Shown: one piece after another, positions 1,102 through 11,156 of the stretch
Layout of the letters: every line of letters starts with the position of its first letter
Numbering within the stretch: position 1 is the stretch's first letter
From: Marinobacter sp. Arc7-DN-1
GTDB taxonomy: Bacteria; Pseudomonadota; Gammaproteobacteria; Pseudomonadales; Oleiphilaceae
DNA: 64,000 nt
Assembly: GCF_003441595.1 (NCBI RefSeq)
Contig: NZ_CP031848.1
Location: 1,488,001 to 1,552,000, forward strand
Direction of reading: 5' to 3'
Program-made: the position numbers and the translations under genes
The notes under the pieces: model-generated
Told to the model about the DNA's origin: nothing
The model's input: only the letters and a program-made list of their open reading frames with translations
Database searches by the model: none

Positions 1102-1998
1102 ATGAGCTCCAGCAAACAGCGCCTGCAGCCCGAATTCGAGTGGGTCGATCAGCAAGGTGACGAATCGATCCGCTACCTTGATCATGGATACCCCAGCCCC
1201 CTTGTGCGCTGGCACTACCATGAGGAGTATGAACTACACCTGATCACAGCGACGTCAGGCAAGGTGTTCGTTGGCGACTACATTGGCAATTTCTCACCTG
1301 ACAGCCTGATACTGGTTGGCCCCAACCTGCCCCACAACTGGATAAGCCAGCTGGATAAGGGGGAGCGCGTCGAGTTACGCGACCGCGTCATCAACTTCTC
1401 CCATGAGTTTGTGAAAGGATGCGAATCCTTCTTCCCGGAAGCACGGCTGCTGGCTCCGTTCTGGGAGCGCGCGCAGTATGGCATTGAGTTTCTGAACCCC
1501 GACAGCATTGCCAGGGCCGTGGAGCTGTTCGAAGACATTGCAACTTCCGGAGGTTTCAGGCGCCTGACCCGATTCTGGACGCTGATAGAGCTTCTTGCGG
1601 GCATTGATGATTACCGGGTGCTCTCCTCATCAACCTACATTCCGATCACCGATGAGAAGATCCTCCATCGGCTCAATCTGGCCGTCAATTACATCTTTGA
1701 GTCCTATGACACCAGCATCTCGCTTGAAGAAGTCGCAGACCATGTGAACATGGGGCCGACCTATTTTTCCAAATTCTTCAGGAAAGCGACTGGCCAGCGC
1801 TTTATTGAGTTCGTCAATACCCTGCGCATCAACAAAGCCTGCGAACATCTTGCCCATACCGACGAGCCGATTACTGAAATCTGCTTTTCGGTCGGATTCA
1901 ACAACATCGCAAACTTCAACCGCCGCTTTTTTCACCTCAAGAAAATGACACCTTCGGACTATCGAAAGGCATCAATGGATGTTCTTTACCGGGGCTGA
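1102..1998 (+). CDS. mtlR: AraC-family regulator of the mannitol operon (MtlR-like)
   Basis: 298 residues with an N-terminal cupin-like sensor (His-rich RWHYHEEYELHLI near residue 35) and a C-terminal AraC/XylS double helix-turn-helix (ISLEEVADHVNMGPTYFSKF and ITEICFSVGFNNIANFNRRF, about residues 205-285). Length and architecture match Pseudomonas MtlR, the activator of mtlEFGKDYZ for mannitol, sorbitol and arabitol use. Here it lies directly upstream of a porin and the same transporter and enzyme genes on the same strand, so a role as polyol-responsive activator is a strong inference. Two near-identical upstream regions with an inverted repeat (2144-2167 and 4077-4100) are candidate binding sites. 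Confidence 0.85.
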   Translation: MSSSKQRLQPEFEWVDQQGDESIRYLDHGYPSPLVRWHYHEEYELHLITATSGKVFVGDYIGNFSPDSLILVGPNLPHNWISQLDKGERVELRDRVINFSHEFVKGCESFFPEARLLAPFWERAQYGIEFLNPDSIARAVELFEDIATSGGFRRLTRFWTLIELLAGIDDYRVLSSSTYIPITDEKILHRLNLAVNYIFESYDTSISLEEVADHVNMGPTYFSKFFRKATGQRFIEFVNTLRINKACEHLAHTDEPITEICFSVGFNNIANFNRRFFHLKKMTPSDYRKASMDVLYRG

Positions 1999-2130: not shown

Positions 2131-2385
2131 GATGGAAAAAAAGTACATAAATCTGGCGAATTATGTATTTGTCCGCTTTTCATGCCCAGCGTGTAATAGG
2201 ACCCAGCACCCGATTGGGTGTACCGGCAACAACAATGTTGACGGGTTTCCAGATTTAGCCCGGATCGACCTACTCCAAAAATAAACAGAGGTTTGAACAT
2301 GAGCACCAACACCCTTTTCCCGGCGCAGGTCGCAGCCGGAATCCTGACCGCATCCTCCTCCGCCATGACGGCAACTAAAGTCACT
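2131..2385 (+). repeat. Duplicated mtlE promoter/leader, copy 1
   Basis: This stretch is closely similar, by eye nearly 90 percent, to 4062-4322, which is the promoter, 5' leader and signal-peptide coding start of mtlE. Shared landmarks in order are the TACATAA inverted repeat, the CACCCGATTGGGTG palindrome, the CAACAATGTTG palindrome, the AACAGAGGT ribosome-binding region and the first 29 or so codons of mtlE. Similarity stops after the codons for KVT. The copy now sits upstream of the porin gene and probably drives it. Confidence 0.9.
2144..2167 (+). promoter_or_regulatory. Candidate MtlR operator upstream of the porin
   Basis: Perfect 7-base inverted repeat TACATAA / TTATGTA separated by 10 bases. 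The same site, with one arm base changed, is found at 4077-4100 upstream of mtlE. Conservation inside the duplicated promoter and its place upstream of both transcription units suggest a regulator site; assignment to the MtlR-like protein is inference. Confidence 0.5.
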
Positions 2386-2394
2386 TACAGATAA
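2299..2394 (+). pseudogene. Remnant 31-codon mtlE leader peptide
   Basis: A 31-residue open frame begins MSTNTLFPAQVAAGILTA and ends KVTYR. It matches the signal peptide and first mature residues of MtlE (start at 4237) and then hits a TAA stop. The ribosome-binding region AGAGGTTTGAAC is retained, so it may still be translated. It has no mature domain and is best explained as the truncated 5' end left by the promoter duplication. A leader-peptide role for the porin gene 80 bases downstream is possible but unsupported. Confidence 0.75.
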
Positions 2395-2473
2395 ACGAAG
2401 TTCCGCATAGATTTAATGCGACTACTCAGCGTGGAAATAAAACAAATAGCATCCATCACATGAGGTAAAATCA

Positions 2474-3751
2474 ATGAGATTAATAAGCGCTTCAAAACTG
2501 GGGACGGTTTGTGCGTTGCTGGGGATGGCCGCCAGCCCCACTTACGCCACAGAATTGGGGCTGGCCTCCAGCCCCGCCCCTGGCACGGAATTATTCGACG
2601 GTAAAGTAGAAATCAAGGGCGCTATCATGAGCTCCTTCCAGGAACTGGAAGCTGACGATAATGCGTTCAATGTTGCTGATCGGTCGACCGACTCAGGCTT
2701 CAACCGGATACGCTTTTCTCTCGGCTTCGATATCCAGGTCTCAGAACGCATCAATGCCTTTGTGGAACTCAGCGAAGAACCGAATGACTTTGGCACTGAC
2801 GATCAGTTCGAAATCTCCAACGACCTGTCGTTTATCAATTATATGCTCACTGATGACCTCACTTTTCGTTTGGGCGGAGTTGTCACCGCGGTGCGCAACT
2901 TCGGGGGATATTCAGACGGTGCCGTGGTACAGGGCAACCCACTGATTGGCAACTCACCCGCCGATATGGTTACCGCGGAATCCGGCTTCACCGTCTTGGG
3001 AAGCCATGATATCGGCAGCGGTTTTCTCAAACGGGTGAACTGGGACGCCACCGTGACTGTGCCCACCTTCTTCGAGGATTTCGGCGGGGATCGTGGCTAT
3101 GATTACTTCTTCAAGGGTTCTCTGGACCTGCCCATGGGCTTCAGTGTCGGCGGCGGCTATGCCTTCAATGACCTGGGTGATCAGGTTACCGGCGATAATC
3201 CGCGCCCGTTCAGTGAGGTTCAGACGATGGGTATGGTGCAGGGTGACGGCGATAACTACAACTTCCCGGGCAGTGGTGCCGGTGCTCGTGATACCCATGC
3301 CGGTCTGGTGCCGGGTCTGGAAGTCGATGTGTGGCAGATCGGTGCCCAGTATGAGGGTGAGGATATCCCGCTCTATGCCCGCATCTGGTTCGGTCGGGCT
3401 GAAGATAAATTCAGTTTTGGAGACAGCTCAGGGAATCAAACCGTTGCTAGCCAGGCCACCCAGTTCCTGCAGCAGACAAGCGAAATGCAATTTTATGGCA
3501 CGGAGGCCAGCTACTACATAATGCCTTCAAAACTCTACGGTGCAGTGCGCTACACCCTTGTGACTAATGAGTCCGACAATGCCGGTCCCGACGACGAGTT
3601 GACACGTACCCAGGTCGGCGGCGGTTATTGGCTAAATGATGTGGCGCTAGTAAAGGCGGAGTACGTGAGCCAGCAAGAGGGCGCGAATTCCCCCGGTCAG
3701 ATCGGGGATGACTGGGATGGCTTTATGCTGGAAGCCTCTGTAGTTTTCTAG
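2474..3751 (+). CDS. Outer-membrane porin in the mannitol locus
   Basis: 425 residues with an N-terminal signal peptide (hydrophobic stretch, cleavage probably after PTYA near residue 25), alternating beta-strand composition rich in Gly, Asp and aromatic residues, and a C-terminal Phe (EASVVF), the usual outer-membrane barrel signature. It is not a close visual match to OprB, so I leave the family open. Its position between mtlR and mtlE, under a copy of the mtlE promoter, suggests that it lets polyols or related sugars across the outer membrane. A strong hairpin follows the stop codon. The ribosome-binding site GAGGT lies 8 bases before the ATG. Confidence 0.8.
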   Translation: MRLISASKLGTVCALLGMAASPTYATELGLASSPAPGTELFDGKVEIKGAIMSSFQELEADDNAFNVADRSTDSGFNRIRFSLGFDIQVSERINAFVELSEEPNDFGTDDQFEISNDLSFINYMLTDDLTFRLGGVVTAVRNFGGYSDGAVVQGNPLIGNSPADMVTAESGFTVLGSHDIGSGFLKRVNWDATVTVPTFFEDFGGDRGYDYFFKGSLDLPMGFSVGGGYAFNDLGDQVTGDNPRPFSEVQTMGMVQGDGDNYNFPGSGAGARDTHAGLVPGLEVDVWQIGAQYEGEDIPLYARIWFGRAEDKFSFGDSSGNQTVASQATQFLQQTSEMQFYGTEASYYIMPSKLYGAVRYTLVTNESDNAGPDDELTRTQVGGGYWLNDVALVKAEYVSQQEGANSPGQIGDDWDGFMLEASVVF

Positions 3752-3768
3752 TTTCCGCTCCGGAAAAA

Positions 3769-3811
3769 TTGGGTACAGACCCCGTTTTCTTTAATCGGGG
3801 TCTGTACTCAA
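3769..3811 (+). terminator. Long hairpin after the porin gene
   Basis: GTACAGACCCCG (3773-3784) pairs with CGGGGTCTGTAC (3796-3807) around an 11-base T-rich loop. Extending outward gives a stem of about 16 pairs with one mismatch. It lies 18 bases after the porin stop and may end the porin transcript, separating it from mtlE. It lacks a clean T-run after the stem and also resembles a REP-like palindrome. Confidence 0.55.
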
Positions 3812-4061
3812 TTGATAGTGTTTCCGATTAGCATCTCTGCCGAAATCGATCTGGCAACCGAAGCTCGAGTGCTGGATCCTGGCCCGACTGCGTCACCGGG
3901 CATTCGATAACACATCGAGATGGCCGTGTGCAAATCGGTCACGTTCGCCGGAATACACAACTTTATCGCGTCAGATTTTTCCTTTTCTAACAGGACAATG
4001 CTTTACCGACAGCCGCTCAAAAGGTGGTTCACGGTGGCTGACGCTTAAGGGAACAGCTCGG

Positions 4062-4322
4062 CGAATGGCAAAAAAGTACATAAATCTGGCGAAGTATGTA
4101 TTTGTCCGCTTTTCATACTCAGCGTGTAATGGGCTCATAGGATTCAGCACCCGATTGGGTGTACCGACAACAATGTTGACGGGTTTCCAGATTTAGCCCG
4201 GATCGACCTACTCCAAAAATAAACAGAGGTTCGAACATGAGCACCAACAGCTTTTTCCCTGCGCTGGTCGCAGCCGGAATCCTGACCGCATCCTTCCCGG
4301 CCATGGCGGCCACCAAAGTCAC
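4062..4322 (+). repeat. mtlE promoter/leader, copy 2 (parent copy)
   Basis: Counterpart of 2131-2385. This copy continues into the full mtlE gene and is therefore probably the original. The region 3812-4061 between the porin hairpin and this repeat shows no gene or obvious signal. Confidence 0.9.
4077..4100 (+). promoter_or_regulatory. Candidate MtlR operator upstream of mtlE
   Basis: TACATA / TATGTA inverted repeat, the second example of the site at 2144-2167, about 137 bases upstream of the mtlE start. The binding protein is inferred. Confidence 0.5.
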
Positions 4323-5559
4323 GATTGGCACCGTCAACAACGGCGACATGATTCGCATGCAAGGTTTGTCTGATGCCTTCGAAGCAGAATACCCGAATAT
4401 AGACCTCGACTGGGTCGTACTTGAGGAAAATGTCCTCCGCCAGCGCCTGACCACGGATATTGCCACCGGCGGTGGCCAGTTCGACGTGATGACCATCGGC
4501 ATGTACGAGGCCCCGATCTGGGGAGAAAAAGGCTGGCTGACGGTTATGGATGACCTGCCGGAAGACTATGACAAGGAAGATATTTTCCCGTCGGTCCTTG
4601 GCGGCCTCTCGAAGAACGGGAAGCTCTACGCGCTGCCCTTCTATGCCGAAAGCTCGATGACCTACTACCGCAAGGATCTTTTCGAAAAAAACGGGTTAAC
4701 CATGCCGGCCCAGCCCACCTGGGAACAGATGAAGTCGTTCGCCAAAACCCTCCACAAGCCCGACGAGGGACAATACGGGGTTTGCCTGCGCGGCAAAGCC
4801 GGCTGGGGCGAAAACATGGCGCTGATCACCACCATCGCCAACGCGTTCGGTGCCCGCTGGTTTGACGAAGAGTGGAAACCTGAATTCACCGGCCCGGAGT
4901 GGAAAGACGCGCTCACGTTCTACGTCGACCTGCTGGGTAACTACGGTCCCCCGGGGGCATCCTCCAATGGCTTCAATGAAAACCTCGCACTGTTCAATTC
5001 CGGCAAATGCGGCCTATGGGTAGACGCCACGGTAGCCGGCGCGTTTGTTACCGACGAATCCCAGAGCAAGGTCGCTGATAAGGTTGGTTTTGCACTGGCA
5101 CCAAGCCAGAAGACCGATAAGGGCGCTGGTTGGCTGTGGTCCTGGGCACTGGCCATTCCGGTCAGCTCGGATGCAAAAGAAGCCGCCAAGACCTTTATCA
5201 CCTGGGCGACATCCAAGCAATACAGCGCCCTGGTGGCGGAGACCACCGGCATCGCAACCACTCCTCCGGGCACTCGGGCATCAACTTACGACAACGCCGA
5301 GTACCTTGCTGCCGCGCCGTTTGCGGCCAAAACCCTCGAGTCGATGGATAGGGCCGATCCCAATGACGCCACCCTGAAGCCGGCCCCCTATGTGGGCGTT
5401 CAGTTTGCCGCCATCCCGGAGTTTCAGGCCATTGCAACCCAGGTTGGCAAACTTTTCTCCGGGGCGCTCGCCGGCTCCATGTCGACGGAACAGGCCCTGA
5501 TGGGCGCCCAGTCGATTACGACCCGCGAAATGACCCGGGCGCGTTACTACTCAAAGTAA
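4237..5559 (+). CDS. mtlE: Polyol ABC transporter, periplasmic binding protein
   Basis: 440 residues with a Sec signal peptide ending AMA near residue 24 and the fold pattern of family 1 extracellular solute-binding proteins (DVMTIGMYEAPIWGEKGWL, LYALPFYAESSMTYYRKDLF). This is the typical length for sorbitol/mannitol binding proteins of alpha- and gammaproteobacteria. It should bind mannitol, sorbitol or arabitol in the periplasm and deliver it to MtlFG. It is the first gene of the transporter-enzyme run. The ribosome-binding site is AGAGG. Substrate choice comes from the neighbouring mannitol dehydrogenase and fructokinase rather than from binding-site residues. Confidence 0.9.
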   Translation: MSTNSFFPALVAAGILTASFPAMAATKVTIGTVNNGDMIRMQGLSDAFEAEYPNIDLDWVVLEENVLRQRLTTDIATGGGQFDVMTIGMYEAPIWGEKGWLTVMDDLPEDYDKEDIFPSVLGGLSKNGKLYALPFYAESSMTYYRKDLFEKNGLTMPAQPTWEQMKSFAKTLHKPDEGQYGVCLRGKAGWGENMALITTIANAFGARWFDEEWKPEFTGPEWKDALTFYVDLLGNYGPPGASSNGFNENLALFNSGKCGLWVDATVAGAFVTDESQSKVADKVGFALAPSQKTDKGAGWLWSWALAIPVSSDAKEAAKTFITWATSKQYSALVAETTGIATTPPGTRASTYDNAEYLAAAPFAAKTLESMDRADPNDATLKPAPYVGVQFAAIPEFQAIATQVGKLFSGALAGSMSTEQALMGAQSITTREMTRARYYSK

Positions 5560-5668
5560 TCACGTCGCTATGAACTAACACAACTGGCACCTGTGGGTCC
5601 CGTCATGCCGCTCCATCGGCTTATACGGGCAGCCCACACCGTCAGGGCCCCTTCCCGGAGGCATTGGC

Positions 5669-6613
5669 ATGGAAACAAAAACTTTGGATGCGGACGCAAT
5701 CCGCACAATGCAAGACACGGCTCCGACTGCAGGAGGTGTCAGCAAACAGAAAGCCAGAGTCAGCCGGCTCATGGTATCGCCATCGGTGCTGTTGCTTCTG
5801 CTCTGGATGGTTGTTCCCCTGTCCATGACGATTTACTTCTCGTTGATCCGGTATAACCTGCTTTATCCCGGCGAAAACGAGTACGTCGGCCTGGAGAACT
5901 TCCGGTTTTTCGTGACTGACCTGGGGTTCATGGCCGGCATGACCAACACACTGCTGCTGGTCGGCTCGGTACTCTTGATCACAGTCGTATTCGGTGTCCT
6001 GATTTCACTGCTCATTAATCTGGCGTTCTGGGGTCAGGGGATTGTCAGAATCCTGTTGATTTCGCCGTTTTTCATCATGCCCACGGTAAATGCACTGGTC
6101 TGGAAAAACCTGCTGCTGCACCCGGTGTCGGGGGTCTTTGCCGCCATCTGGCAGTTTTTCGGCGCGCAACCCATTGACTGGTTCTCGGAGTTTCCGCTTT
6201 TCTCCATCATCATGATCGTGTCGTGGCAATGGCTGCCTTTCGCGATCCTTCTGCTGATGACCGCACTGCAGTCGCTCGACCAGGAGCAGCAGGAAGCCGC
6301 GCGACTGGACGGCGCTGGCCCATGGGCCCTGTTCTGGCACCTGACCCTCCCCCACCTGGCCCGCCCGATTGCCGTGGTGGTGATGATCGAAACCATTTTC
6401 CTGCTCTCACTGTTTGCGGAAATCTTCACAACAACCGGTGGTGGCCCCGGCTACGAAACCACCAACCTCGCCTACCTGATCTACAGCCAGGCGTTACTCC
6501 AGTTCGACGTTGGCCTTGCGTCAGCGGGCGGACTGATTGCCGTCATTCTTGCCAATATCGCCGCGTTCTTCCTGGTTCGCGTCGTCGGCAAGAGTCTGAC
6601 CGATAAACAATAA
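5669..6613 (+). CDS. mtlF: Polyol ABC transporter permease
   Basis: 314 residues with about six transmembrane helices and the binding-protein-dependent permease loop (EAARLDGAGPWALFWHLTLP, about residues 210-230) that contacts the ATPase. The start at 5669 has a GGAGG eight bases upstream. An N-terminal cytosolic extension of about 20 residues precedes the first helix. It pairs with MtlG to form the membrane channel for the polyol bound by MtlE. The gene is 109 bases after mtlE and 16 before mtlG. Confidence 0.92.
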   Translation: METKTLDADAIRTMQDTAPTAGGVSKQKARVSRLMVSPSVLLLLLWMVVPLSMTIYFSLIRYNLLYPGENEYVGLENFRFFVTDLGFMAGMTNTLLLVGSVLLITVVFGVLISLLINLAFWGQGIVRILLISPFFIMPTVNALVWKNLLLHPVSGVFAAIWQFFGAQPIDWFSEFPLFSIIMIVSWQWLPFAILLLMTALQSLDQEQQEAARLDGAGPWALFWHLTLPHLARPIAVVVMIETIFLLSLFAEIFTTTGGGPGYETTNLAYLIYSQALLQFDVGLASAGGLIAVILANIAAFFLVRVVGKSLTDKQ

Positions 6614-6629
6614 CGCCGGAGGTGACACC

Positions 6630-7463
6630 ATGCTTAGCCTGAAACAACGCCGAAGCCTGACAACGGCCCTTATGGGTATCCTGGCCTGGGGCGTAGCCCT
6701 GGCCATCTTCTTTCCGATTTTCTGGATGCTGCTGACCAGCTTCAAAACCGAAATCGACGCGTTCGCGACGCCGCCCCAACTGTTCTTCACACCCACGCTG
6801 GAGAACTACACGCTGGTCAATGAGCGCAGCGACTACTTCCACTTTGCCTGGAACTCGGTGGTTGTGTCTTTCGGCTCAACGATTATCGGGATGCTGCTGG
6901 CGGTACCCGCCGCCTACTCCATGGCGTTTTTCGAGACCAAACGCACCAAGGCCACCCTGCTCTGGATGCTGTCCACCAAGATGCTGCCACCTGTCGGCGT
7001 ACTGGTCCCGATCTACCTGCTGTTCAAAGACCTGCAGATGCTGGATACCCGCATTGGGCTGACCATTATTTTCACGCTGATCAACCTGCCAATCATGATC
7101 TGGATGGCTTACACCTACTTCAAGGAAATCCCGAAAGAGGTACTGGAAGCCGCGCGTATGGACGGCTCAACGCTGTTCCAGGAGATCTGGCGGGTTCTGC
7201 TTCCCATGAGCAAAGGCGGGCTGGCGTCCACCGTTCTCCTGGCACTGATTCTGAGCTGGAACGAGGCATTCTGGTCGCTGAACCTCACCGCATCGCAGGC
7301 AGCGCCCCTGACTGCCCTGATCGCCTCCTACTCGAGTCCCGAAGGACTGTTCTGGGCCAAGTTGTCCGCAGTCTCAACCCTGGCCTGCGCTCCGATCCTG
7401 ATCTTTGGCTGGATCAGTCAGAAACAGTTGGTTCGCGGTTTGTCCTTTGGCGCAGTTAAATAA
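6630..7463 (+). CDS. mtlG: Polyol ABC transporter permease
   Basis: 277 residues, six predicted membrane helices, with the permease EAA loop EAARMDGSTLFQEIWRVLLP around residues 170-190. It is the MalG-type partner of the preceding MalF-type permease. The start follows CCGGAGGTGACACC, a strong ribosome-binding site, and the gene ends 12 bases before mtlK. It should form the inner-membrane translocation pore for mannitol-type polyols. Confidence 0.92.
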   Translation: MLSLKQRRSLTTALMGILAWGVALAIFFPIFWMLLTSFKTEIDAFATPPQLFFTPTLENYTLVNERSDYFHFAWNSVVVSFGSTIIGMLLAVPAAYSMAFFETKRTKATLLWMLSTKMLPPVGVLVPIYLLFKDLQMLDTRIGLTIIFTLINLPIMIWMAYTYFKEIPKEVLEAARMDGSTLFQEIWRVLLPMSKGGLASTVLLALILSWNEAFWSLNLTASQAAPLTALIASYSSPEGLFWAKLSAVSTLACAPILIFGWISQKQLVRGLSFGAVK

Positions 7464-7475
7464 CGGAGAATTCCC

Positions 7476-8579
7476 ATGGCTGATTTAACAATAAAAAACC
7501 TGAAAAAATCCTTTGGGGATGTGGAAATCCTCAAAGGCATCAACCTGAACATCAAGGATCACGAGTTTGTTGTCTTCGTTGGCCCCTCAGGCTGTGGCAA
7601 GTCGACCCTGCTGCGCTCGATCGCCGGCCTTGAAGAGGTCACCAGTGGTCATATTTACCTGGACGACAGGGAAATCACCGAACTCGCGCCCGCCAAGCGG
7701 GATCTGGCGATGGTCTTCCAGAGCTATGCGCTCTATCCCCACATGTCCGTGCGCAAGAACATGTCATTTGCGCTGGAGCTGGCCAAGGAGCCCAAAGAGA
7801 CGATCAAAGCCAAGGTGGCCGAAGCAGCTCGCATTCTGGAGCTGGAGCCTTTGCTTGAGCGTAAACCCAAGGAACTGTCCGGTGGGCAACGCCAGCGCGT
7901 TGCCATTGGCCGCTCCATCGTCCGCCAGCCCAAGGTGTTCCTGTTTGACGAACCGCTGTCGAACCTCGATGCCGCACTTCGCGTGCAGATGCGGCTTGAA
8001 CTTGCGCGGCTTCACCATGACCTGAAAGCCACCATGATCTACGTGACTCACGATCAGGTCGAAGCCATGACCCTCGCCAATAAGGTCGTGGTACTCAACC
8101 AGGGGCAGATCGAGCAGGTCGGCTCGCCCATGGAGCTCTATCACAGCCCGGCCAACCGGTTTGTCGCGGGCTTTCTCGGCATGCCGAAAATGAGTTTCCT
8201 GCCTGCTACCGTGCTTGCATGCGATCATCAGGGAACCCGAATCCAGCTCGAAGATGGCGCCACACTCACCCTGCCGGTCGAGGGGACATCATTGCGCAAG
8301 GACAGCCGCGTAACCCTGGGCGTGCGGCCTGAGAACATTTATGTCTCCGACCCTGCGGAAAGCCACCTCACCGGCCGTCTGGACATAGCAGAAAATCTTG
8401 GCAGTGACACCTACTGTTACGTCAAAACCGGTACCGGCGAAACGCTTACGGTCCGGACACCGGGCAATTTCACATGCAACTTTGGCCAGCAGATCGGCCT
8501 GAGCCTCGAGCTCGACCAGTGCCACCTGTTCGATGACCAGGACCAGGCCCTGCCCAGACTCGAGCAGATCGCCGCCTGA
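7476..8579 (+). CDS. mtlK: Polyol ABC transporter ATPase
   Basis: 367 residues. Walker A GPSGCGKST at residues 36-44, Q-loop near MVFQSYALYPHM, signature LSGGQRQR near 134-141, Walker B FLFDEP near 156-161 and the switch His in VTHD are all present. The C-terminal third is a TOBE/MalK-type regulatory domain. It powers uptake by MtlEFG. The order mtlE-F-G-K-D is the Pseudomonas mannitol operon order. Confidence 0.95.
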   Translation: MADLTIKNLKKSFGDVEILKGINLNIKDHEFVVFVGPSGCGKSTLLRSIAGLEEVTSGHIYLDDREITELAPAKRDLAMVFQSYALYPHMSVRKNMSFALELAKEPKETIKAKVAEAARILELEPLLERKPKELSGGQRQRVAIGRSIVRQPKVFLFDEPLSNLDAALRVQMRLELARLHHDLKATMIYVTHDQVEAMTLANKVVVLNQGQIEQVGSPMELYHSPANRFVAGFLGMPKMSFLPATVLACDHQGTRIQLEDGATLTLPVEGTSLRKDSRVTLGVRPENIYVSDPAESHLTGRLDIAENLGSDTYCYVKTGTGETLTVRTPGNFTCNFGQQIGLSLELDQCHLFDDQDQALPRLEQIAA

Positions 8580-8623
8580 CACGCGAAGGGCCGGCCCCGC
8601 CGACCGGAAAACAGGGTGAACCT

Positions 8624-10099
8624 ATGAAGCTGAACAAGACCACACTGTCCGACCTGCCAAGCGGCGTTTCGCGCCCGCAGTACAATCGGGCAAACCTGAA
8701 ACATGGCATCATCCACATCGGGGTTGGCGGCTTTCACCGTGCCCATCAGGCCATGTACACAGACAGACTGTTGCAGCAAGGCGGCAACGACGACTGGGCC
8801 ATCTGCGGAGTCGGGCTGCGTGAGGCAGACCGAACCATGCAGTCCGTCCTGGCAGAACAGGACTACCTCTATACCCTGATCGAGCTGGGCTCCGATGGCA
8901 CCAATGCATTGAGTGTCATCGGTGCGATCACCGATTTTCTGTTTGCTCCGGACGACCCCGACCGGGTGATCGAAAAGCTTGCCAGTCCTGACGTCCGAAT
9001 CGTTTCCCTCACCATTACCGAGGGAGGCTACAACGTTGATGACAATACCGGGCTTTTCAATCATGAGCATCCGGATGTGGTTCATGACCTGCAGCATCCC
9101 CAGCAGCCGCGCACCGTGTTTGGTTTTCTGACCGAAGCCCTTGCCCGCCGCAGAAACCGGGGACTGGCACCATTTACCATCATGTCCTGCGACAACCTGC
9201 CCCACAACGGCCATGCAGCGCGCAGCGCTTTACTGGCATTCGCCTACATGCGTGATGCCGGGCTGGCAGAGTGGATTGATCAACAGGTCACTTTTCCCTG
9301 CAGTATGGTGGATCGAATTACACCGGGAACCACGCCCGCCCATACCGAGTGGCTGAAACTCTCCCATGGTATCGAGGATCGCTGGCCAGTCATCTGCGAA
9401 CCCTTCACCCAGTGGGTTCTGGAAGACAATTTCTGCAACGGCCGCCCGGACTGGGCGTCCGCCGGTGCCCGGTTCACAGGCAATGTGGCCCCCTACGAGC
9501 TGATGAAAATCCGGCTGCTGAATGCCAGCCACTCGGCCATGGCGTACCTGGGTTACCTTGCCGGCTATCGCTACACCCATGAAGTCATGGCAGACAGCCG
9601 TTTCACCGATTTTATCCGGGCCTTCATGGATGAGGATGTTACCCCGATTCTGGGTGACATTCCGGGCGTTGATCTCGTTGGCTATAAGGCGACACTGATC
9701 GACCGCTTTTCCAACCCACAGGTCGGCGACCAACTGGCCAGGCTGTGCCTTGACGGATCCAGCAAGATCCCCAAGTTCCTGGTGCCAACCATTCGAGCGC
9801 TTATTCAGGAATCCCGGCCCCTGGACCGCGTGGCCCTGGTCATCGCAAGCTGGGCGGTATACCTCAAAGGCAAGGACGAAGCCGGCCACCTGCATGAAGT
9901 TCGGGATCCGCTTGCTGAACGCCTGCAAACCGCAGTGCAGGACCGGGACAGCCTGAACCAGACGTTTCTGGGCATGGAGGATCTGTTCAGCAGGGATTTG
10001 ATCCATTCCCGGGCCTTTTGCGCGGCCTTTGAGTCCGCCGTCAAAAGGCTGGAATCCGATGGTGTTCTGGCGACCCTGGAATCGTTGTCAGTCACTTAA
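8624..10099 (+). CDS. mtlD: Mannitol 2-dehydrogenase
   Basis: 491 residues, the full length of the polyol-specific long-chain dehydrogenase/reductase family. N-terminal nucleotide-binding region HIGVGGFHRAHQ near residue 30 and the family catalytic pattern K...N..H in MKIRLLNASHSAM near residues 290-300. It oxidises D-mannitol (and often sorbitol or arabitol) to the ketose with NAD in the cytosol; the product from mannitol is fructose. It follows mtlK by 44 bases and precedes the fructokinase. Mannitol versus sorbitol preference cannot be read from sequence by eye. Confidence 0.93.
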   Translation: MKLNKTTLSDLPSGVSRPQYNRANLKHGIIHIGVGGFHRAHQAMYTDRLLQQGGNDDWAICGVGLREADRTMQSVLAEQDYLYTLIELGSDGTNALSVIGAITDFLFAPDDPDRVIEKLASPDVRIVSLTITEGGYNVDDNTGLFNHEHPDVVHDLQHPQQPRTVFGFLTEALARRRNRGLAPFTIMSCDNLPHNGHAARSALLAFAYMRDAGLAEWIDQQVTFPCSMVDRITPGTTPAHTEWLKLSHGIEDRWPVICEPFTQWVLEDNFCNGRPDWASAGARFTGNVAPYELMKIRLLNASHSAMAYLGYLAGYRYTHEVMADSRFTDFIRAFMDEDVTPILGDIPGVDLVGYKATLIDRFSNPQVGDQLARLCLDGSSKIPKFLVPTIRALIQESRPLDRVALVIASWAVYLKGKDEAGHLHEVRDPLAERLQTAVQDRDSLNQTFLGMEDLFSRDLIHSRAFCAAFESAVKRLESDGVLATLESLSVT

Positions 10100-10124
10100 A
10101 GACGCCCCAGGCAGGAAACAGACA

Positions 10125-11156
10125 ATGCAAAAGGTTATCGCATTTGGAGAAGCACTGATCGACATGCTCTCCAGCAACGTCGGCAACACACCCGGAACCG
10201 GGACGACAGAAACAACCGGGCAGGAAACCTTCACCAAGTTTCCCGGTGGTGCTCCGGCGAACGTCGCAGCCGCGGTTGGTAAGCTGGGCGGTCGCAGCTA
10301 CTTTGCGGGCAAGGTCGGAGCGGACATGTTCGGGGATTTCCTCAAGGCATCACTGGAAGACAACGGCGTAAATACCGACTACCTGCTGCAGACCCGCGAA
10401 GCCAAAACGGCACTGGCCTTTGTGTCACTGGACGCCCATGGCGAGCGAAGCTTCGAGTTCTATCGCAACCCTTCCGCGGATACGCTGTTTCGTTCGGAGG
10501 ACTTTCAGGATGAATGGTTTCAGGAGCCGGGAATTTTCCATTTCTGTTCCAATACGCTGACCGAGCCCGGCATACGGGAAACAACCCTGGCGGGCCTGGA
10601 AAAAGCCAGGAGTGCCGGTTTTGTCATCAGCTTTGATCTGAATCTGCGGGAAAATCTGTGGCCAGAGAACAGCGACCCATTCGGCGCTGTATGGTCCTGC
10701 ATCAAGCGGGCACATGTGGTTAAACTCAGCGCAGAAGAACTGGCCTTCCTCTGCGGTGATCAGGATGAGGATCTTGTCCTGAGGAGGCTCCAGAACGCCG
10801 GCGTCGCATTGATCGTGATCACCGACGGAGGAGCACCCATGCGTTATTACACAGGCAGCCATAAAGGGCTGATTCAACCTGTAGAGGTAACCATGGTAGA
10901 CAGCACAGCGGCCGGCGATGCCTTTGTCGGCGGCCTGCTATACCGCCTCGCAGAAACGGAAGTGTCTCCGGCGCGATTGACTGCTCTGGGCGAACATCCT
11001 GAAGCCCTGAAAGAAATGCTTCAGTTCGCCAGCGCCTGCGGCGCCCACGCGGTAACCCGCGCTGGGGCATTTACCTCACTGCCGAGCCAGTCTGACCTGG
11101 AGAGCCTGCTCAGGATTTCCCGGCACCGGACTCAGCCAACTGTGCCCGGGTCTTGA
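10125..11156 (+). CDS. mtlZ: Fructokinase, PfkB family
   Basis: 343 residues of the ribokinase/PfkB fold: N-terminal FGEALIDML, substrate-site KFPGGAPANVAAA near residue 45, and the C-terminal anion-hole motif AAGDAFVGGLLYRL around residue 260, whose Asp is the catalytic base. It phosphorylates the fructose formed by MtlD. The start at 10125 has AGGAAACAGACA in front; an in-frame upstream start overlapping mtlD is unlikely. Pseudomonas operons carry mtlY (xylulokinase) between mtlD and mtlZ; it is missing here, which argues for a mannitol/sorbitol rather than arabitol pathway. Confidence 0.9.
   Translation: MQKVIAFGEALIDMLSSNVGNTPGTGTTETTGQETFTKFPGGAPANVAAAVGKLGGRSYFAGKVGADMFGDFLKASLEDNGVNTDYLLQTREAKTALAFVSLDAHGERSFEFYRNPSADTLFRSEDFQDEWFQEPGIFHFCSNTLTEPGIRETTLAGLEKARSAGFVISFDLNLRENLWPENSDPFGAVWSCIKRAHVVKLSAEELAFLCGDQDEDLVLRRLQNAGVALIVITDGGAPMRYYTGSHKGLIQPVEVTMVDSTAAGDAFVGGLLYRLAETEVSPARLTALGEHPEALKEMLQFASACGAHAVTRAGAFTSLPSQSDLESLLRISRHRTQPTVPGS

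Follow-up and report, generated by a model that had tools for sequence, protein, structure and literature searches.

The window, a stretch of 64,000 nucleotides from Marinobacter sp. Arc7-DN-1 (contig NZ_CP031848.1, positions 1,488,001 to 1,552,000), carries near its start the genes of polyol uptake in the order mtlR, promoter copy A, a porin-like gene, promoter copy B, mtlE, mtlF, mtlG, mtlK, mannitol dehydrogenase and PfkB-family kinase (Table 1). The mtl gene set is that of the Pseudomonas fluorescens operon for mannitol, arabitol and glucitol; in that species OprB is credited, presumptively only, with the outer-membrane step (PMC4514859). A literature search on mtlE in Marinobacter found nothing addressing the mtlR-porin-mtlE locus. 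Elsewhere in the genus, mtlR is divergent from mtlE in genome G012 (L044), versus tandem in the window; judged from this order, the regulator is rearranged within the genus. Contig 12 of G059 (L043) carries a second mtlE-like gene (72% identity), apart from the main mtl operon and with one TGA reported inside the match.

Table 1. Features of the mtlR-mtlE region, in window coordinates
Feature	Position	Strand	Basis
mtlR, AraC-family activator gene	1102..1998	+	Pfam HTH_18 and AraC_binding; same place in most relatives
Copy A: native mtlR-mtlE spacer, PmtlE, first 28 mtlE codons	2029..2384	+	Collinear with G108, groups with G108
Copy A MtlR-type operator: two TGG half-sites, A-tract behind the first	2133..2168	+	Block conserved in 12 genomes
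Copy A -35 TTGTCC, 17-nt spacer, -10 TGTAAT	2169..2197	+	Sequence, alignment
MtlE remnant, signal-peptide region, decaying	2299..2394	+	Sequence, alignments
Left junction: mtlE homology ends abruptly inside codon 29	2384..2385	.	Sequence alignments
Porin leader, AT-rich (36% GC), ribosome-binding site TGAGG	2385..2473	+	Without relative in genus
Outer-membrane porin-like gene, 425 aa	2474..3751	+	Homologues, weak fold match
Long-stem hairpin 3' of porin, no U-tract	3767..3813	.	Folding
Tyrosine-recombinase gene scrap, 36 nt	3832..3867	+	89% match to two copies in G102
Internally deleted IS21-family element, right end (..GGAATACACA) at 3959	3867..3959	+	Collinear istA/istB element fragments in genus
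Copy B: diverged mtlR-mtlE spacer, PmtlE, mtlE start	3960..4322	+	Alignments, tree
Copy B MtlR-type operator	4066..4101	+	Alignment
Copy B -35 TTGTCC, 17-nt spacer, -10 TGTAAT	4102..4130	+	Sequence, alignment
mtlE, polyol-binding protein gene, intact	4237..5559	+	Pfam SBP_bac_1; 96% aa identity to G108
mtlF, mtlG, mtlK ABC transporter genes	5669..8579	+	Pfam, relatives
Mannitol dehydrogenase and PfkB-family sugar kinase genes	8624..11156	+	Pfam

The doubled promoter region and its counterpart in relatives

Pairwise alignment of the two copies (A 2120-2384, B 4053-4322) finds them clearly homologous, with 241 of 262 aligned bases identical (92.0%) and indels of 8 and 3 nt. When copy A was searched by blastn against the 64-kb window, it hit itself and 4053-4322 at E 1.5e-98, and the next match was 19 nt long (E 0.22); in the whole genome the repeat occurs twice, as A and B alone. 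The similarity is thus far above chance, bearing out an earlier note on this DNA, which had described a doubled promoter and leader region; its coordinates were correct to within about a dozen bases, with copy B reaching further left. The right edge of the repeat (AAAGTCAC) is sharp and cuts mtlE two bases beyond codon 28. The left edge is diffuse: homology of copy B to the mtlR-mtlE spacer of genome G029 extends as far as 3960-3962 (local score 40, against 29 for the best of 500 shuffles), and 3960-4052 is a recognisable but diverged spacer of this kind, with ~50% identity to copy A and to G029.

Among 124 genomes of the genus, the window's own (G000) included, mtlE is found in 15 and the porin in this one alone; a search of the 123 other genomes found it absent from all. 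The closest relatives by MtlE identity are G108 (96%) and G029 (93%), and in both of them mtlR is followed directly by a single promoter and mtlE. Comparison of this interval, suggested in the earlier note as a check for a recent event, thus found porin and second copy both missing there. Window blocks 4-2384 and 4054-10019 are collinear with G108 (assembly 58% complete; mtl locus on one contig) and overlap there at one promoter, the first block corresponding to 3926-6304 of its locus L032. No match to 2370-2490 was found in the genus genomes. Relative to G108 and G029, 2385 to ~3959 is by these alignments an insertion, and the porin looks acquired because it lacks a match in 123 genomes and the site is empty in both relatives.

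Copy A and G108 have three derived states in common (a deletion of 8 nt and two substitutions, C to A in the first half-site of the operator and G to T at GAAT) where copy B, G029 and the outgroups from which polarity was taken keep the ancestral states. Sites dividing the four sequences two against two join A with G108 and B with G029 in 13 cases, A with B in 3 and B with G108 in 1. In maximum likelihood analysis (~280 columns) A and G108 group with support 96/91, a sister relationship of A and B is disfavoured (AU p 0.04), and the best tree places B outside G029, A and G108 together (80/84). In the tree of the mtlE body G000 joins G108 at 100/100. Judged by its collinear upstream flank and the derived states in common with G108, copy A is the native one. 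Since A joins G108 and the mtlE body also joins G108, the copy B promoter, on these trees, either predates the split from G108 or is foreign to it, and mtlE itself is native.

Between the B-type promoter and the native mtlE body, the alignments place a switch from one sequence to the other somewhere between ~4165 and 4325. The right-hand breakpoint is not fixed more closely because the coding parts of the repeat are about equally distant (A-B 88%, A-G108 86%, B-G108 88%). A natural place for a homologous crossover is the 71-nt leader upstream of mtlE, which copy B shares unchanged with G108 and G029. No such homology is present at the left junction in codon 29.

Control elements and the MtlE remnant

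In both copies the operator begins 36 nt before the -35 box, with an A-tract after the first half-site. As expected of an MtlR-dependent PmtlE, an AraC-family activator gene lies nearby and two half-sites fall within ~37 bp upstream of the -35. Matched by eye to the consensus AGTGC-N5-AGTAT-N7-AGTGC-N5-AGGAT, the first half reads ATGGC-AAAAA-AGTAC and the second, looser, CTGGC-GAAGT-ATGTA. The single change in the first half-site of copy A (C to A) is presumably tolerated because the sole mtl promoter of G108 carries it too. No terminator-like site was found on the + strand from promoter A to the porin start. Operator, -35 and -10 are complete in both copies, and the porin is therefore probably mannitol-controlled from promoter A; its placement under the polyol promoter, as the earlier note had it, is the natural reading of two whole promoter cores.

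Copy A runs into an open reading frame (2299-2394, +) of 31 residues plus stop (MSTNTLFPAQVAAGILTASSSAMTATKVTYR), the 31-codon MtlE remnant of the earlier note, which has L to Q in the hydrophobic core and A to T close to where cleavage is predicted, and ends 79 nt ahead of the porin start. That note's wording, that the duplicated region captures the porin, was overstated, since no fusion joins the signal-peptide remnant to the porin; the latter is supplied with a start, a ribosome-binding site and a signal peptide of its own.

The mtlE 5' leader (4166-4236, and 2228-2298 in copy A) is identical at 71 of 71 positions in copy B, G108 and G029, next to coding sequence at ~80-88%. It holds AAAAATAAACA beside the ribosome-binding site, which we take to resemble the Crc/Hfq-type AANAANAA motif; a search for a known RNA element in the leader found none. 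It is conceivable, and in our view very unlikely, that the MtlE stub acts as a translated leader which, with the conserved mtlE 5' leader, couples porin translation to the post-transcriptional control of the transporter. One polyol signal would then adjust uptake at the outer and inner membranes jointly, acting through two separate promoters.

The porin-like gene and the mobile-element debris

The product of 2474-3751 is likely a porin. Its sequence has a signal peptide and a C-terminal phenylalanine, and its five relatives, 38-50% identical, share many motifs, all six family members ending in F or FD. No curated Pfam or NCBIfam model reaches its cut-off on the protein (best Porin_7, E 0.013), and a sequence-profile search against solved structures found no match. 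Where a general porin would have a beta-barrel of ~16 strands, a low-confidence AlphaFold model (mean pLDDT 42) contains many strands of 10-14 residues, and in Foldseek this model best matches a general trimeric porin (E 5e-6, TM 0.36). An N-terminal stretch of ~11 residues sets the window protein apart from its five relatives and may have come from a small local duplication; the first codons also hold a GC-rich inverted repeat (2521-2575).

In Zhongshania antarctica (L047), G403 (L076) and a Catenovulum adriaticum plasmid (L050) the porin relatives adjoin genes for mannitol dehydrogenase and a sugar kinase, which in Zhongshania and Catenovulum is a PfkB kinase; the same three loci hold an HAD phosphatase, a SorC-type regulator and a permease-like protein beside the porin. 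This gene context of its relatives supports a polyol role of the porin. An Alteromonas plasmid carries a more distant relative close to a gene with the annotation PQQ-dependent alcohol dehydrogenase. Genes of this kind lie near the distant family members L051 (annotated) and L077 (an open reading frame recognised by eye), hinting at an alcohol/polyol porin family outside Pfam and NCBIfam.

Two candidate readings of the porin flanks were rejected. For leader region 2376-2473 as a diverged promoter copy, the 14-nt match (TACTCAGCGTGGAA) is within chance, being equalled in 54 of 1000 shuffles. The very stable hairpin downstream of the porin (79 nt folding at -36.5 kcal/mol, z -6.8) is not a dispersed repeat, its core 12-mer being unique in the genome.

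Beyond the hairpin lie pieces of a recombinase gene and of an IS21-family element, short at 24-42 nt each. The terminus of the IS21 relic aligns with seven other copies ending ..GGAATACGCA, where the window has ..GGAATACACA; it is a conserved terminus in CA with unrelated flank beyond, as for IS21 ends. Fuller relatives with istA and istB are present in several other genus genomes, and one intact relative, L066, carries the Pfams IstB_IS21, rve and Mu-transpos_C_2. Among the best candidates per genome, a search with 3745-4090 found no other IS21-element match in G000, G108 or G029 at E 0.001. Spacer homology in copy B sets in one to three bases after the relic ends, which argues that the lineage supplying copy B formerly had an IS21-family element in its mtlR-mtlE spacer. 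A composite transposon was rejected: there is an IS end at one side only, and 2370-2490 has no match in any genus genome.

Origin of the arrangement

We consider it fairly probable that a foreign porin entered the interval between mtlR and mtlE, accompanied by mobile-element debris and a diverged mtlE promoter, so that the native copy A now reads into the porin and copy B drives the mtlE operon. The incoming gene would be of the general porin type, and its source was probably a sister lineage in which an IS21-family element already lay beside the porin in the mtlR-mtlE spacer. At the right junction homologous recombination would have taken place in the leader or start of mtlE, and at the left junction illegitimate recombination inside mtlE codon 29. 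Promoter A would thereby have stayed upstream with a cut-off mtlE stub, and copy B would front the intact mtlE. MtlR with mannitol, arabitol or glucitol would then switch on two units: promoter A, the stub and the porin; and promoter B, mtlEFGK, dehydrogenase and kinase. We infer the donor and the recombination route, as we do porin transcription from A and polyol passage through the porin. Our search for a donor genome with the porin, the IS21 relic and copy B but without copy A found none. Homology-facilitated illegitimate recombination has been documented (PMC3240628), as have duplications made by transformation (PMC3784515), and a single import from a sister lineage accounts for the data.

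The main rival, and a serious one, is an old duplication followed by loss: the insertion and both promoters would be ancestral, and G108 and G029 would have lost the porin and one copy, scarlessly, by recombination between the direct repeats. Such recombination would yield exactly the empty site seen, and an old event predicts the position of B in the best tree and suits the heavy decay of the IS21 relic; the left part of the G108 promoter is also A-like. Against this, it calls for no fewer than one loss and probably for two independent ones, the 14 other mtlE-bearing genomes hold no trace of the porin, and the spacer upstream of copy B is just ~50% identical to those of A and G029. We regard this history as possible and on balance unlikely. 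Far less credible is the simple, recent tandem duplication within the strain that the earlier note had put forward, with promoter and mtlE start doubled and a porin picked up between them. Two direct copies of ~265 nt, 92% identical, do flank the porin as it would have them; however, they are as far apart (92.0%) as the two species (A-G108 92.1%) and are not each other's nearest relatives. The proposal is not borne out by the grouping of A with G108 or the AU test on A and B as sisters, nor by copy B, which keeps ancestral states and abuts the IS21 end and older spacer.

A further alternative concerns function: the porin might not be mannitol-controlled, copy A being dead or the porin having its own promoter in 2395-2473, and the arrangement would then be a passive scar. 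The changed half-site of copy A, the decay of the MtlE remnant, its stop 79 nt short of the porin and the AT-richness of 2385-2473 would all suit this. But G108 has the same half-site change in its only mtl promoter, the core of promoter A is otherwise intact, no sigma-70-like site was found in 2385-2473, and porin relatives sit in polyol loci; we hold a passive scar to be improbable.

With import as the preferred reading, the locus is a well-resolved case of a foreign uptake gene placed under an existing regulator by means of a second promoter copy, and two close relatives still show the empty site. An outer-membrane route for mannitol, arabitol and glucitol is predicted from the arrangement, which also offers a lead on a porin-like family, outside the curated models searched, beside polyol/alcohol dehydrogenase genes in several marine bacteria. 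The event is of a known, ordinary kind of operon remodelling. As read here, it resembles the events of PMC3240628 and PMC3784515 in combining one homologous with one illegitimate junction and in the partial duplication of recipient DNA bordered by repeats; those were laboratory events, whereas here the route is deduced from a scar of some age and from a donor copy that has diverged. The IS21 relic is like its family in terminal sequence and in its collinear istA and 3'-end fragments, although it is reduced to ~90 nt with no transposase.

The polyol clusters of Zhongshania antarctica and Catenovulum adriaticum pCadTS8_2 contain members of this porin family (48-49% identity) next to genes for mannitol dehydrogenase and a sugar kinase. 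Their porin gene is instead divergent from those for the HAD phosphatase, SorC-type regulator and permease-like protein, with no mtlEFGK in the stretch read and no duplicated promoter. The closest parallel in regulation is PmtlE/MtlR of P. fluorescens DSM 50106 (PMC4514859), which has the same AraC/XylS-type MtlR, the same mtlEFGK-dehydrogenase-kinase set, and likewise an operator of ~37 bp directly upstream of the -35, in which an A-tract comes after the first half-site at -72; the -35 is TTGTCA there and TTGTCC here. In P. fluorescens, however, mtlR lies elsewhere in the genome, a single promoter serves the operon and the presumed porin OprB is encoded outside it, whereas the promoter is doubled in Marinobacter sp. 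Arc7-DN-1.
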